Assembly: GCA_023053545.1 (NCBI GenBank)
Contig: JAKZAN010000007.1
Location: 7,068,001-7,132,000 of the forward strand
Direction: 5' to 3'
DNA: 64,000 bases
Source of the DNA: Lepidurus packardi
Lineage: Eukaryota; Arthropoda; Branchiopoda; Notostraca; Triopsidae
The notes beneath the pieces were generated by a model. It was not told the DNA's origin. It worked only from the letters and a program-made list of their open reading frames with translations, and made no database searches. The position numbers and the translations under genes were made by a program. Every line of letters starts with the position of its first letter. The first letter of the stretch is position 1. Positions 2,178 through 48,000 of this stretch are shown piece by piece.

Positions 2178-2774
2178 TTGGATATTGTATGCTGTTATGT
2201 ACTATATTTCTATCGTGCATCGTTTTGCACGCAAATGTGCTTTTCAACTAATACATGAATGTGTACATAATGTCTAGCATAAATGGGCAGCTTTAAACAA
2301 TAATTAATGCATAAATTAATAAGAGTTAATGCAAATATAGAGAGCAGTGAAAGGGCATTGTGTTTATTCCGTTGATAGGGGTCCCCTTTTATTAATTTAA
2401 ATAGCCCGCGTTTCCTTCCCGCCCGTACGGGATCGGCGTTCGCATTTTTCCTTCCACCCAAGAAAAGGGCGGTCCCTACCGGTGTGTTGTGGCTGGTGTG
2501 TTTTGATATCTCCCCAAATAAGTTCAGTTTAAACGGCTTTTATTAGACAATTAACACGCAATTGTGGCGGTTTTATGTACAAGACAAAAGCCTGACGTTG
2601 TTAAACACACAAGAAGTTGTGAAAGTGGGGTTGCAGGCTTTACGTTAGCAAGTCGATGAGGCATGATGCTAGTGCTCCTGTTTGAACGCCCACTTTACCC
2701 GTATTTTAGAGGGTTTGTTTCGCGTCTTGACTAACATTTTTCTGCTTAACTCCGAACTTCTATCATTTGATATA
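2178..2774 (+). other. Calpain 3' flank and ROCK 5' flank
   Basis: About 600 bp between the calpain stop and the ROCK start codon, with no coding exon recognised. It should hold the calpain 3' UTR plus the ROCK promoter and 5' UTR. The first half is AT-rich. No clear AATAAA signal is visible just after the calpain stop. Confidence 0.5.
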
Positions 2775-8279
<5,505 letters not shown>

Positions 8280-12500: not shown

Positions 12501-15500
12501 ACATGCACCTTTTCTTTTGGTTCACTTTGAGCTGACGGCCGTCACCCAAAATTGACCTTTTCAGACTTGTTTGGCTAACATGGTTGTTATACTGTTGCCA
12601 TACTTGTAATTGTACTCACAGACTTTGGACCGTAATTTTAAAACCGATATTATAAAGGAAACCCTAACCCCTTTTTTCTTTTTTCTGTACTGTCAGGTGG
12701 GCCCGGCAGCGCAATCTCTTTTGAATCCTAACGCGTGTGCCTTTGAAAGCAAGGCTGCTGCGGACTCGAATTCCCATCCAAATGGTGGCAACCAAGAAAA
12801 TTTGGATAACGTGACTACAGCCAACAGTGGAGAAGAGGAAGAGTCGATGAATCATGGTGCCAATATTACAGTGTCAGGTAAAAATTACCTACGTTTATCG
12901 ACATAACTTTGCGTTGCTTAATATTAAAATAGTAATTGAGTTAACCCAATTTTTAGGAATATTATGCTCCGACGAAAAAAATTGTAGACATTTACTTAGT
13001 AATTCTTGACTGTTTGAGTAAAGCGGGCTCAGGCAATGTATTTGTATCGCGTTGGTTATCGTATCGTGACTGCAGGCTTGCAATCGATATCGATTACAAT
13101 CGAGCCGCACACACCACAGCCATCTTGGTTGGGGGTTTGCGATTGTGAGGTGTTTCTTTGCCTACTTTGAACATTTTTGGTAAGCCTTGTTCTTTGGTTT
13201 TTGGTGTGAATATTGCGATTAGAACCAACGGTGTTCTCATAGTTTAGCTGTATTTACTGAGCAGTTTACTCAGCGCAGAAACACAAGAATCAAGCGTCCT
13301 TTTGACAAGCGAGGCAGGCTGCGATAAATGCAGCGTAATGCAGCTTATGGGAACTGGTGCAGACCAACAGAAAAGCCAGGGAGACTAGAGGACCGCGTGG
13401 CAAGTTTTCGGCTTATCGCCTGTGAAGCAAATTATTCCGTTCTTGTTTGTATTTCTTGAGCAAATGCATGTACAGTAGAAGAAGTGGTTGAATTAATTTA
13501 TCAGCAATAAGTGTGAAGGTCTAAGCAAGGTCATTCTATGGAAACTGGGTATTTACACGTAAGGACATAGCTATTTGCTTAGCTGAGAGCCACCCCCTGG
13601 ATTGCTCTCCCAAAAGCCCCATATTTGTTAGTCAGCAACAGTAAAACGGAATACTGTCGATCTGTTGGGTTCGTTGAAGACTTGCTAAACAATACGTGAC
13701 GATCATCCGTGTGATTGATGTGGTCTAATTCTTGGTTTTTGTTCCATTTGTTTATTATAGACAACGCCTTCATGAATGGGGAACGTGAAGGTATGCCTAC
13801 TCCTTTTCCCCAGCTAAAGGCACCTGCACTCACGCCTTTGCATTCTACTGTTTCTTCTCACTCTCCTGATGATTCACTAAGTTCGGCAGCAGCAGCAGCC
13901 AGGTTCGTTTCATTAATTAAACCGTCTTGGACACTTTTTTAATTATGCTGAATTGTCTGATTTTCTTTGGACCGCAACGCTTGTTTTGTGACGCAATGTT
14001 GAAAACATGCAAGAACTAGATTGTACGGGTATTGGCACTCACTTTTTATGTAATTCCCTATCTAATTGCGTAATTCCATTGGAACAATTCGCCAAATGCA
14101 CATGCAAGAGCATGGTTAAGCTTTATGTAGTCTTACTTGCTATTGTATGCGATCAAAACAACCGTTTGGATGCCAGCCAATGTAATGATCCCAACAGTGT
14201 GCTTTGGTTAACCAGACTCATAAAAGAGTTGAGGGAAACCTGGACATTATTTCCGACAGGAACTCCAGGTCCGGGTTCCTTTGCTTTTTTCTCCTCTATT
14301 GAAGTAGTCAGACACGAACACAGAGTAATACAAAAGAAACGTACGTAATAGCGTTAACGTGTATTACGAGCTTGTATTAACAGAGGGCAGAACGATGCCG
14401 GAAGTAATTTAGCTTGAAAACGTCTTCTCACAGTTCAGTTAAGCACGTCTCGATATAGTATAGTATAGACGTACTAATTGACGATAGAAGGAGCGAAATA
14501 AAAAATATTAAATTGTTTTGCCTTCTAATTGGGACAGAACAGGTGCCGGATGTTTGTAGTTTTCTTTGAAGTATACCACTTTAGCCCAATAATATAATAC
14601 TCCGTCTCTTAAAAAGAAGACGGATTAGCTTTTGTTTCTTCTCTGATGTTTCTAACTTTAATTGTTTGAAATTTCTTTTCGACAGAATTGACGGTCATGT
14701 CGTGCTAGACGCTGATACTTTCGCATCCTCTTCCGAGCTAAAACCTATTTCTTCTACTATTCCCACAACCATAACGCCCTTGGTTGTCAGCATGGTAGAA
14801 GCAGAACAAAGGGCGGGGTCTGCTACTGGTGTAGGCGTGGACTTGAGCCACTCCACAGAAGATCTGGGCATGTCTTTGGAACAGTTGAAGCATCTGTTGG
14901 CTACTCAGCTGGAATATTACTTTTCCAGGTAATTTGTCAAATTTTTTCCTCCCGGCAGAGTTAGCTATGCCCTGAGTTTTTGAGTATCCGATGCCATTGC
15001 GGCGCATTTAACTTTCTTTGCCATGCCATACTTAGAAAATTTGGTAGATATGGACCAAATTGTCCTTGTGTTACCTGGCTTCGGCTTATCATACGTTACC
15101 AGGCGTCAACCGGGACACACATCAAATTTCTCATAGCTTTTTGAGGAAATGTTGACAATTATCAACGTTTCCTAGCGAAGAGAAAACATTTTTGAAACAG
15201 ATATTCCCTTGCAGGATTTTTCTCATGTAGTTTTAAACCTTTAAACCAGATTTGGATCTTTCTGTCATGGCCTTGTTTTCTGTGTGCAATTTAGGGAGAA
15301 TCTGGCAAATGATGCTTATTTGGTGTCGCAGATGGATGGGGACCAGTACGTGCCTATTTGGACAGTGGCTAATTTTAATCAAATTAAGAAATTGACCAAC
15401 GATATCAGCTTGATTACTGAAGTATTGAAAGGTAAGCAGAATCCACTTCAAATTTTACTTTTATTTTTGATTTGCTACCGATGCAATACTTTCGTCCTTG

Positions 15501-18500
15501 TGTTACCTGGCTTCTGCGTATCTTGCGTTGCCAGGCGTCAACCGGGACATACAGCAAAATTTCTAGTTGCAATTACCTGAAAACTTTCGGCAGCTGCCAG
15601 GTTTTCTTGCGAGTAGAAAACATTTTTCAGGATAACTAGTTCAATATCCGCCTTGGGCGCCCAAGTTTACTGAGGTTGTTCTTTCTTTCGGGGTCGTTTG
15701 TTGTTTTTGTTTCCTTTGTTTTCCAAGCCTTGATGAGCTTGTTTGTTTGTTTTGGTCCTAATCTGGGGATTTTGCCGTGGGCGTTTGTAGAGTCGTCAAA
15801 TGTACAAGTCGACGAAGAAGGCTTACGAGTGCGCCCCAACCACAAGCGCTGCATTGTAATTTTGCGGGAAATCCCGGAATTCACGCCTCCCGACGAAGTA
15901 CGTCAGCTTTTTACCTCAGCTGAAACTGACCGACCGATGCCGAAAATTGTTTCCTGCGAGTTTGCTCATGCGGATTCCTGGTACGTCACATTCGAGTCGG
16001 ACGAAGATGCACAAGTGGCTTACCGTTATATTCGTGAAAAGGTGCCGGAGTTTAAGGTAAGAGTCCTCCTCTTACGTACTTCGATTTATGGTTTTTATTG
16101 CCAAAACAGTATACTTTTGCAAAACTTCTTAACAGGCTTTTTTCCATCCTAGACCTATTTTTTGTGATTTTTATTTTAAATTCGTTAAATATACTTAACT
16201 TCTCTTTTCATTTCTTTTTTCTTTCCTTTTTTTAGAATTTATGGTCTTGGTTCACTAAATATTGATGTCTTCCTAATTTTCTGTTTTAATGTTTTTCATA
16301 TAAAGGGTAAACCTTTGAATGCTCGCATCAAGGCAAAACCCATGCATCGGTTCTCATTTCCCATGGCCCCACCTGTCGTGGGAATGGGCGTGGCCGGGGT
16401 CCCGCCTACGGCTATACCCGTCCCAGTTCCAGTATTAGTCGCCCCACCCCCAGCGCTTCCAATGGGCGCACACCCGCTCAAAAATGGTTATCCTGCCTCT
16501 GTATCCAATACACCACCTCAAGAAACGAATGGTCCTCTGGCCACCGCTCATGCAATGAGCCATGCAGCAGCGGCGTCTGGTGGGGCCAGCGGAGGGACGA
16601 GTATCGTGGCCAATGGGACTGGCGTAGCAAGTCCGGTGCCCGCACAGCCTAGTCAATTGCATGCACAAGGACCCGCTGGGGGCGGAGGTGGAGGAGCAGC
16701 AGCAGGGGGTCCAGTGGGAGGGACTCAAGTCCCTCCCCAACCTCGCTATATGGCTTACCCTGGCCCCACAGGCCAACCAGGGGTGGGTTATGGGTCCCAA
16801 GTGCAGCTTTTTGTAAGTGATAATGAAAAGGAGTAGAATTTTTGTTTAAACCGACGACCTTGTAGGCATTTCCTCAACCAGCGCCTTTCTATCCTCCCAG
16901 TTTGCTGCAAGCATGGACTCCTGCAGGCCCTTCGTATTTTGACTTGAGCTCCATGTTTACCATCAACAACTTGACGCCGACTGCAGCTTTCAAGCCTCCG
17001 GCACCTCGCTATTTAATTCCTCGAAATAAGTAAGTTTGTGTAGGGTGCCTGAAACCTTTCTACCTGAGCTACTGAAAAAACTCATTTATATTCCGCTTAC
17101 TTTCTGCCTGCTATTGTTGAGCGTTTCCTGTATGATATTGACCGCCGAATTATGCAGGAAACGTGTTCTGGAATAATTGGACTAGGCAACACTTGCTTTT
17201 CAGTTTTACGGAGTTGTTCAGTATTAGAAAAGTTATACTTGAAGCTTATAGTTTAATAGTCAATCTAAAATTTGAAATCATATTGACCTACTTTTTTTTA
17301 AAAAAAAAAAAGTACATTAGTTTAAAAGCAGAGAAATGCATACGAAGAATATTAACAAACTCGATCAAAGAAAAGATAAATCTAATACGTTTGAATTGGT
17401 TAAACCCAGTAATTGACTTTTGACAATTTCTTCTTTTGACAAGACAATTTCTAATTCAGAGACTTCGGTTTAGTGTGTTCTTGTAGTCTGTTATGTTGAA
17501 GTGAGCATGGCAGTCGATAAAATCAGTGGACATTGCTATAATAATCCACCATTGTAGGACTCATCGACGTGTGCCGTCCAACTCCAGTACTCACTCTGCT
17601 GATACGCCTCAGTTCTCAACTCCTTCCTCGAATAACAGCATCAATTCGTCCAACCGATCAGCCGCCACCTCACAACAACAGCAGCCACAGCAACCCCCCA
17701 TTAGTCCCAACAACAATGCCTTTATATCAGCTACACCACAACCTCCCCAGCTACAGCAGTCCTCGGGGGGATCCAGCTCTACGTCATCTGCTGCTGCTGC
17801 AAGCACCCGCAACAAGGAAACTTCTTCGACGCCTACGGCAGGCTTTGGCAACGTTGTAGCCACTGCCATGTCCACCTCGTCCTCGACCGGTCCTCCGACG
17901 AGCGCCAATGTCAATGGCGTGTCCCCAGCCAACTCTAACAATACCGCAAGTTTGGTAGGAGCCAGCCCGGGCAGCTACCGACCCCGAGAAACCAAACCGT
18001 ACCCTCCGAACCCTAGTCATACGAGTTTCCCAGGCACGGTTCCCTTCAACGCTGCATCCTCTACTTCGTCTCCGGCTGGCCCTGGAGACCGAAGACACCC
18101 GAGTGGCACCAACCTTGACTATCATCGTGGTTCTGATGATTCCGGCGGGAGCAAGTACGACCGCTCGGCGGGCAATTCCGGTCATACTAATCATATGGGA
18201 GGTTACGGCACCGTCGGACGTGGTCGACATCGTCCTCGAACTCGCCGGAGAGAAGATGAGCCCTCTTCCAATTCTGGATCTCAAGGCAGCGGGCCAACCA
18301 GCTACTCCCACCCACGTGGCATAGGACCAGCATCAAGGTCAGCCGCCAGTGGTAATGGTCCGATGTATGGCAGAGCTCGAGAAGCGTCGCAAGCCGCACA
18401 GTTTGATTTGCAGACTGCTGGAGCCTTCCCCCCCTTGCCTGGCGCCGAAAGTCCCCCTGAACCGGAGGAGGCCGTTCCGAACGACTCGAGCAAAGCGTTT

Positions 18501-45000: not shown

Positions 45001-48000
45001 ACGAATAGGATTTAAAGAAACGAAGAAAAGGAGCGCAAAATCCACATTTCTTAATAAATATCTAGGGTGTAATCTGTACGGAATCCTCGTCGATCCACAG
45101 CGTACTTGTTGTCAGCTTGACATTCGTAGAAACCCCCGTCTTTTTGCGTGGCAGGGTCGATTTCCATCTTGGATTTAATCCGGTCGCGCCCGACTTTATA
45201 TTCGTGCACCTGATGTTGCACAAAAAGCACACAATGTTGCCATTTCCTTGCAATTTCTCGTCGTACATGCTCACCGACTCGATTAGGTTGTTATTGTAAG
45301 AAAGAAAGCTTACCTGAAAGAAGGGGTGTGCATACAACTCAATGCCATCCTTCATCCACGTAATGTGTGGGCGTGGAATACCTTGTGCCATACAGTAAAA
45401 AGTCAGTTTGCGACCTAGAACGTACTCGGACTCGAAATGTGAAGATTCAACCACTCGAGCACCCTAGATTGTCCGAATAATTTTAAAATCTTTGTGAAAT
45501 CCATGCGGTTACTAAGCAATTTACATTCGGATTGTTGTAATAAGCTTCAGCTTCGTCGTCTCTTCGTACTCCAGTACCTGCGTTGCCTGTACCGACTCCG
45601 TTTAACGAAGACGGAGGTTCAGCCACAACGGTATTAGCGCCCTGCCGGACTCCGGCACTTGTTAAGACAGGACGTCGCTCTCCGGTTTTGCGACTTGCTG
45701 ATTTATGGCGCAAACCTAATTTTCCTCATTAAAGCTTTGAAGCCGTATAAAGTACCAATTTGCATAGCTACCCTTGACGCCTCGTGCTCCCCCACCGACT
45801 GCTCCTTTTCCCACAGCAGCTCCTTCAACCAAGGGATTTGGCAAATAACTTAGGGCAATGAACAAAGTCAAATATCGCACCCAGTTTATCATTTTGCTTC
45901 CTTTTTCAACTCACTTAACAATGATTGTAAAGTCTTCAGTATGTGTTTCCCCTTTGCGATGTAAGATGTGAGTGTTTGTGTGGGTGGTACGGAGGCAAGT
46001 CTGCGACTAAGTTTTTGGTCTTTGGTGTAGCGAGTCACGATCTCGCACGACACGTTCCTAAGGGTCAATGTCAGGGGTTTTTGGTCGTCGACGCGTTTTC
46101 ACAATTGCCAATATAGCGAAGAAAAAATTTGTAGGAGTAGACTTAAGATGCTCCTTTCACCGCCATATGTTAAGTGGACTGAGAGAAATGAACTTCAACT
46201 TGAACACGTTTGTGTTGGCACTCCGCGTTGCGCAATTCCTGTGAATCTTCCAGTAGTACAGGATGCCAACATAGCTTACTCGCAGTTATACGTTTCAGCG
46301 GATGAACAATTCGGTCCCAGGGTACTCCTTGGTACTGTTGGATACTGTCCAGGTTTCTATAGCAACGTTAGGCCAAAGTTCGGAGCACGTTTTTCTTTAG
46401 ACACGCAAGAAGCGAAGCTCCACATCGGCACAAATGTTCTCATGTTTTGGTTGGCTTAAAACCAGAAGAAACCCTTAACCTACGAAACCCTTTGTTCCCA
46501 CCTTCCAGTTCCGTCCTCTTCATTGATTATATTTGTTGGTTTTCTGCGTACTTAACCCACTTAAACTTTGTCTTTCTGTAGAGGTCTGTGGAACGTGCCC
46601 TACGTGACATCGGCGTATCTGATCCGCGGCTCCATCATCCATGATCCTAAAACCAAGCCGTCGTATATCAACAATCTGTTGGATGCTGACATGGCGTTGT
46701 GTACAAACATGCGACAAAAGGTAATTTGCGTGAGATAAAACTAATTTTCTCAAAATTTGGTGTATTTTTTCTCCCCGGTAGGGTATTTACATGTATGTGA
46801 CAAATCGTCTCGATTGGGGTCATTTGATCAATGCTGAAAATTTTGATACCTCTCACGTTAATAACGAGATGTATGAAATTTTTAATAATCGCTGGGATTG
46901 GGAGCAGCGTTATATCCACGAAAACTACAGCCAGAACTTGGACGAAGCGCTCAATGTTTCCCAGGTGGATATTTTCTCTTTCTTCTTCTCAACTTCATTT
47001 CTTGGGCTTGGTTGTGCAGATTTTGTGTTTTATTTAATGTTTTCTATGAACAAATTCATTTTTTTTTTTCTTACAGCCGTGTCCCGATGTATATTGGTTC
47101 CCTATCTTCAAGACTCGTTTCTGCATTGAATTGGTAGCAGAAATGGAAAACTTTGGTCAATGGTCTGATGGGAGCAATTCTGTAAGTTTTTGTGTTCTAA
47201 AAAACAAAAGAACTATAAATTCAGATTTTGGGAGCATGACGGTGGTGGTTTGTGGTGGTGGGTAATTCCAAGTTAATTTAAACAGGATCTACGTTTGGAT
47301 GGCGGGTATGAAAACGTCCCCACACGGGATATTCACATGCGCCAAATAGGGTTCGAGCAACACTGGCACTTATTCTTACGTGACTTTGTTCGTCCGCTAC
47401 AAGAACGAGTCTTCAAAGGATATTTTAATGACGTAAGATTCATTCTTTCAGTGGACGAAGCACGTAACCAACCTTTACGACTGCCAGACGGACTTGTTGA
47501 TATTTTGTTTTGTTTGTTTTTTCATAAATTCCATAACTCTTTTTATGTTTGGGAAAGGTATATTGAGATCGGAAAAGTATGATCCATTGTGTTGCTGATT
47601 GTTAGGATTCTCGTATTGAAGGCGGTTACGAATCTGTTCCCACCCGTGATATTCATATGAGGCAAATCGGATTTGAAGAAGGCTGGCTTTTCTTCCTGCA
47701 AAATTACGTCCAACCATTGCAGCAACGTGTGTTCGAAGGCTATTTCAACGACGTAAGATTGCCTATGATGTTTATACGCCTTACGTGGTGGTTGGTTTCT
47801 TAGGTGGCGTGGGAGCTCTTGGTCTCTTTGTGGGTTTTTTGGTGAACAGTTTGAGTTCTGTTTTTTTTTTTTTTTATTTAATTGTTAGCCGTTTTGGTCT
47901 TTATTACTTACCTAACTCAACCATGCTTTTTTTGTTCGCCCTTTAATGGTGGAGCTAAGGGATATGGTGACTGACTCAGCGACTTTTATAACTATCGACT

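Follow-up and report, generated by a model that had tools for sequence, protein, structure and literature searches.

The locus considered here raises the question of what is encoded in two consecutive introns of a LARP4-family gene in Lepidurus packardi (Notostraca). It lies in a window of 64,000 nucleotides, the whole stretch of DNA that was analysed (contig JAKZAN010000007.1, positions 7,068,001 to 7,132,000, forward strand). The original prediction had proposed paralogous H/ACA small nucleolar RNA (snoRNA) candidates in these introns, and the analysis supports that reading. Both elements are present at the predicted positions on the coding strand, copy A spanning 131 nucleotides (15061..15191) and copy B 133 nucleotides (15493..15625). 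Judged from sequence, the best reading of the copies is that they are SNORA13/snR35-like guides, an identity that was missing from the original prediction. Each intron very probably encodes a box H/ACA snoRNA of the snR35/SNORA13 type, duplicated within the gene, with the guide pocket of hairpin 1 (pocket 1) kept and hairpin 2 serving as a structural element.

Both copies consist of a hairpin, an ANANNA box, a second hairpin, and ACA followed by three nucleotides, an order that is found in the letters as well as in the minimum free energy folds, which give two hairpins, a hinge, and a tail. Hairpin 1 contains the upper stem CCTGG/CCAGG (letters checked by script) and a pocket with the left strand GTGTT (15068..15072 in copy A, 15500..15504 in copy B) and the right strand GTCAA (15105..15109 and 15537..15541, respectively). 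The H box is located in the hinge and reads ACATCA in copy A (15119..15124) and ACAGCA in copy B (15551..15556). By coordinates, upper stem 1 ends 15 nucleotides before the H box in both copies, in agreement with the original prediction. Hairpin 2 is closed by the basal stem TTTCTC/GAGAAA in copy A (15127..15185) and TTTCTA/TAGAAA in copy B (15560..15619). Both elements end in ACATTT (15186..15191 and 15620..15625), with ACA three nucleotides before the assumed 3' end.

The family to which the copies appear related is that of human SNORA13 (RF00396). Both align end to end with its full model, copy A with 37.4 bits (expect value, E, of 1.1e-4 over 851 nucleotides and 0.0083 over 64 kb) and copy B with 28.2 bits (E 0.012 over 851 nucleotides). 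They are the top two of the eight matches with E <=5 in the window. The clearest block in common is the pocket of hairpin 1, GUGUU...GUCAA, in which the two copies agree letter for letter with each other and with the SNORA13 consensus. Human SNORA13 is also alike in H/ACA anatomy, length, and predicted 18S target; it differs in that two copies are present here, in that their hairpin 2 is different, and in that they score below the family cut-off. The Drosophila family snopsi18S-1377 (RF00543) has the same consensus pocket strands, GUGUU and GUCAA, and the copies match it weakly (24.3 bits for copy A, 22.8 for copy B), below its gathering threshold of 48. Psi18S-1377b is named in one paper, and its letter may denote several fly copies.

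The original prediction pointed to the rRNA and snRNA of the species itself as the place to find a target for pocket 1. The target set comprised 3655 nucleotides from the same genome, namely 18S rRNA (1754 nucleotides, RF01960), 5.8S rRNA, the 5' part of 28S rRNA (1329 nucleotides), and U2, U5, and U6, each represented by a single copy. Within this set, 18S U1201 scores highest for either copy, with 27, followed by a runner-up with 16. U1201 lies in the context UUUGAC-U-CAACACGG. The hairpin-1 pocket is complementary to 18S UUGAC-U-C-AACAC in both copies: the right strand matches TTGAC upstream of U1201 and the left strand AACAC downstream of it, giving five pairs upstream and eight downstream, of which the first five are Watson-Crick pairs and the remainder include G-U. 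U1201 is the one site predicted by the matched SNORA13 family. From its sequence context, we take it to be the equivalent of the yeast U1191 and human 1248 uridine. As to U2, the search of the genome returned 28 matches, three at 179-181 bits and the other 25 at 64.7 bits or less; the gap suggests that the latter are diverged copies, pseudogenes, or chance matches.

Two members of this guide type are documented in the literature. Yeast snR35 guides 18S U1191, after which Nep1 and Tsr3 act (PMC7026641), and human SNORA13 is described as an snR35 homolog and guides 18S position 1248 (PMC12975130). The copies thus have their predicted target uridine in common with snR35 (18S U1191, PMC7026641), given the equivalence of position taken from sequence context. 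The genome also encodes EMG1/Nep1 (PF03587) and TSR3 (PF04034) domains. In-frame stops occur in two of the three EMG1 pieces, where they may be introns read through, and in one of the two TSR3 pieces. The two TSR3 matches are located at C4:7337043-7337399 and C312:4087-4464; the latter carries the in-frame stop and is therefore perhaps an allele, a pseudogene, or from another organism.

Several observations weigh against the assignment. Rfam returned no match at gathering score in the 64-kb window, the SNORA13 scores of 37.4 and 28.2 bits are well under the gathering score of 53, and the match of copy B has an E of 0.94 when the whole window is considered. The copies are therefore not formal SNORA13 members, and annotation at Rfam cut-offs misses both. 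Shuffled pockets equal the U1201 score in 39/500 trials for copy A and 41/500 for copy B, and resampled target sets do so in 10/300 and 12/300, respectively; unless the site is known beforehand, the complementarity is not exceptional. When folded alone, hairpin 1 is modest, with a z-score of -2.0 in copy A (11/200 shuffles as good) and -2.9 in copy B (2/200). Guide pockets usually lie 14-16 nucleotides from the H or ACA box, and the hairpin-2 pocket is 12 nucleotides from ACA in copy A and 13 in copy B. Finally, some 90% of the H/ACA snoRNAs of chicken occur as single copies (PMC2653536), and duplication is therefore less usual in the H/ACA class.

As a whole, both elements fold better than shuffles, copy A with a z-score of -5.1 (0/200 as good) and copy B with -3.9 (1/200). 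Most of this signal is contributed by hairpin 2, which alone reaches -5.4 in copy A and -4.5 in copy B (0/200 as good in each), and less by hairpin 1. The copies show 88% identity over 68 nucleotides of hairpin 1 and 85% over 27 nucleotides at the 3' end, and a MAFFT alignment reveals little similarity in the remainder of both introns; the unit of duplication was therefore the snoRNA itself, unless the event is an old one. Pocket 1 had been described as conserved and pocket 2 as not, and this is borne out: both copies read GTGTT...GTCAA, and the hairpin-2 pocket has diverged. The change from TTTCTC/GAGAAA to TTTCTA/TAGAAA in basal stem 2, with pairing kept, was likewise verified by script. It is the sole strict compensatory pair between the copies. 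Beyond it, the compensatory changes of the original prediction reduce to an A-to-G difference in the alignment that converts C-A to C-G above stem 1. The compensatory evidence is thin, and a comparison of two sequences could hardly yield more. For upper stem 2, the claim of divergence with continued pairing holds in so far as hairpin 2 has diverged in sequence yet folds in both copies; a pair-by-pair correspondence cannot be established, as the divergence is too great to match the pairs one to one.

The original prediction foresaw one shared and one divergent guide target, of which the shared pocket-1 target is retained and no convincing hairpin-2 target was found for either copy. A quite unlikely alternative is that the second hairpin guides a separate site in each copy, the duplication having split or gained targets. 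The default hairpin-2 pockets argue against it, as no site in the 3655 nucleotides, a scan short of the 3' 28S, U1, and U4, beats shuffles (222/500 as good for copy A, 336/500 for copy B). What speaks for it is an alternative upper stem, CCTG/CAGG, in copy B, with which the pocket forms 7+9 pairs (G-U included) around 18S U1125, a pairing that shuffled pockets match in 8/500 trials. This value is weaker than it appears because it comes from a trial of five pockets, including one identical pair; moreover, the predicted fold does not contain this stem, and its pocket lies 18 nucleotides from ACA. U1125 is presumably two nucleotides from the equivalent of human Psi1174. The narrower proposal that hairpin 2 of copy B gained a guide role of its own after the duplication, directed at a further 18S site such as U1125, is very improbable; if true, a duplicated guide would have turned into one for two sites in this lineage. 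Hairpin 2 thus appears to be structural, and its diverged pocket is more likely to be without guide function than to have a second target.

A rather doubtful explanation is that copy A alone works, the pair including a pseudogene in decay, which would probably be copy B. Copy B has indeed the lower SNORA13 score (28.2 against 37.4 bits); however, it has kept pocket 1, the H box, ACA, and both hairpins, it takes part in the compensatory change in basal stem 2, and just 1/200 shuffles folds as well. A repeat-derived or chance structure, with no snoRNA at all, would account for the lack of an Rfam match at gathering score but is barely credible, as family match, boxes, and target are concordant. 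In addition, the combination of pocket motif, stem of at least five pairs, and H box, which was chosen after the Rfam alignment had been seen, occurs at two places on both strands of the 64-kb window, compared with an average of 0.13 across 100 order-1 resampled windows. Many scattered copies of the element, which the original prediction had named as evidence to the contrary, were not found: BLAST of the genome (108.6 Mb, 344 contigs) with the elements gives at least two places, which are the two known copies.

A third copy was also sought by other means. The RF00396 genome scan, in which 45 of 17124 first-look candidates were scored and copies A and B were not returned, gave a single 22-bit match (E 9.12), and little weight lies in this match or in the lack of others; matches to RF00396 below the cut-off also occur in 7 of 14 prokaryote controls. 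A pattern of pocket 1 and H box was matched 59 times in the genome, compared with 90 times for the reversed control pattern, and is therefore without signal on its own. Once nine overlapping rows and a duplicate text had been removed, the 50 places left 49 distinct texts for testing, five of which have a stem of at least five pairs: copies A and B, C4:7497190 (L048), C4:8439727 (L049), and C3:12179579. The first of the additional places was rejected as a further copy, since by eye it looks like a THAP-like protein and lacks a snoRNA match at that place or strand, and L049 was rejected for having no snoRNA match. A model built from the two copies, applied to the window and four loci (L048-L051), gave four matches with E <=5, namely copies A and B, the opposite strand of the copy A hairpin (E 0.094), and 46762-46870 on the minus strand (E 2.2). 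No convincing third copy was thus found in the genome by pattern, family, or model searches, none of which is exhaustive, so that a diverged copy could escape.

Two side observations emerged from these searches. Among the pattern matches, the one whose stem is longest (L048, about 2690-2760, minus strand) lies in the THAP-like frame between what appear by eye to be inverted flanks, possibly a DNA transposon. In the window, a SNORD51 match at 3197-3269 (27.7 bits, E 1.4) was discarded as probably due to chance, as it runs over an exon edge and has no clear C box; the gene at this edge has a reading frame that resembles a ROCK-type kinase.

The host was identified from joined exons, whose limits and splice sites were read by eye. 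They encode a La domain (PF05383, E 5.9e-23, residues 72-127), and among solved structures their best relative is that of La-related protein 4 (6i9b, E 1.7e-63, residues 62-225). The host is therefore a LARP4-family gene, a call at family level in which LARP4 and LARP4B are not told apart. Copy A is located in intron A (14929..15294, GT...AG) and copy B in intron B (15432..15790). Of the 56 residues in the PF05383 match, the intervening exon (15295..15431) contains 46 by manual count, and so carries most of the La motif, as had been stated.

The literature offers some precedent for snoRNAs in this host. LARP4 had been regarded as no standard host, which has to be qualified: intron 10 of human LARP4 hosts SNORD133/SCARNA97 (PMC6601510). 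This RNA has a LARP4-family host in common with the copies but belongs to box C/D, acts on tRNA-Met, and occupies another intron. In a study of human muscle, LARP4 is the gene paired with snoRNA candidate #54 (PMC8482216). Human SNORA13 itself is hosted by the first intron of the long non-coding RNA EPB41L4A-AS1, whereas the host here is a LARP4-type coding gene. No pairing of SNORA13 with LARP4 was found in the open-licence literature, where a name other than SNORA13 would escape, nor was a pseudouridylation-guide snoRNA of the SNORA13 kind in LARP4 introns found in the available parts of that literature. Following duplication, snoRNA paralogs are usually found clustered within introns, be it of a single host gene or of several, and many occupy separate introns of the same host; intragenic duplication was proposed as the main route for chicken snoRNA paralogs (PMC2653536).

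Under the preferred reading of a duplicated snR35/SNORA13-type guide, each intron would be spliced and debranched, and exonucleases would trim it to the RNA protected in its assembled ribonucleoprotein (RNP). The hairpin-1 pocket would pair with helix 31 of 18S rRNA, allowing dyskerin to isomerise U1201 as the first step to m1acp3Psi; EMG1/Nep1 and TSR3 would then supply the methyl and 3-amino-3-carboxypropyl (acp) groups. The two copies would have arisen by intron-to-intron duplication within the one gene. Selection would have preserved hairpin 1 and the boxes in sequence and hairpin 2 in fold alone, presumably because the latter is needed only to hold the RNP.

The U1191-type nucleotide is described in PMC7026641 as the chemically most complex known eukaryotic rRNA nucleotide. 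If the proposed explanation is true, the guide for this nucleotide sits in a host gene for which no such report was found in the literature covered here, and the two introns provide a clean paralog pair in which one pocket would be held constant while the other could drift.

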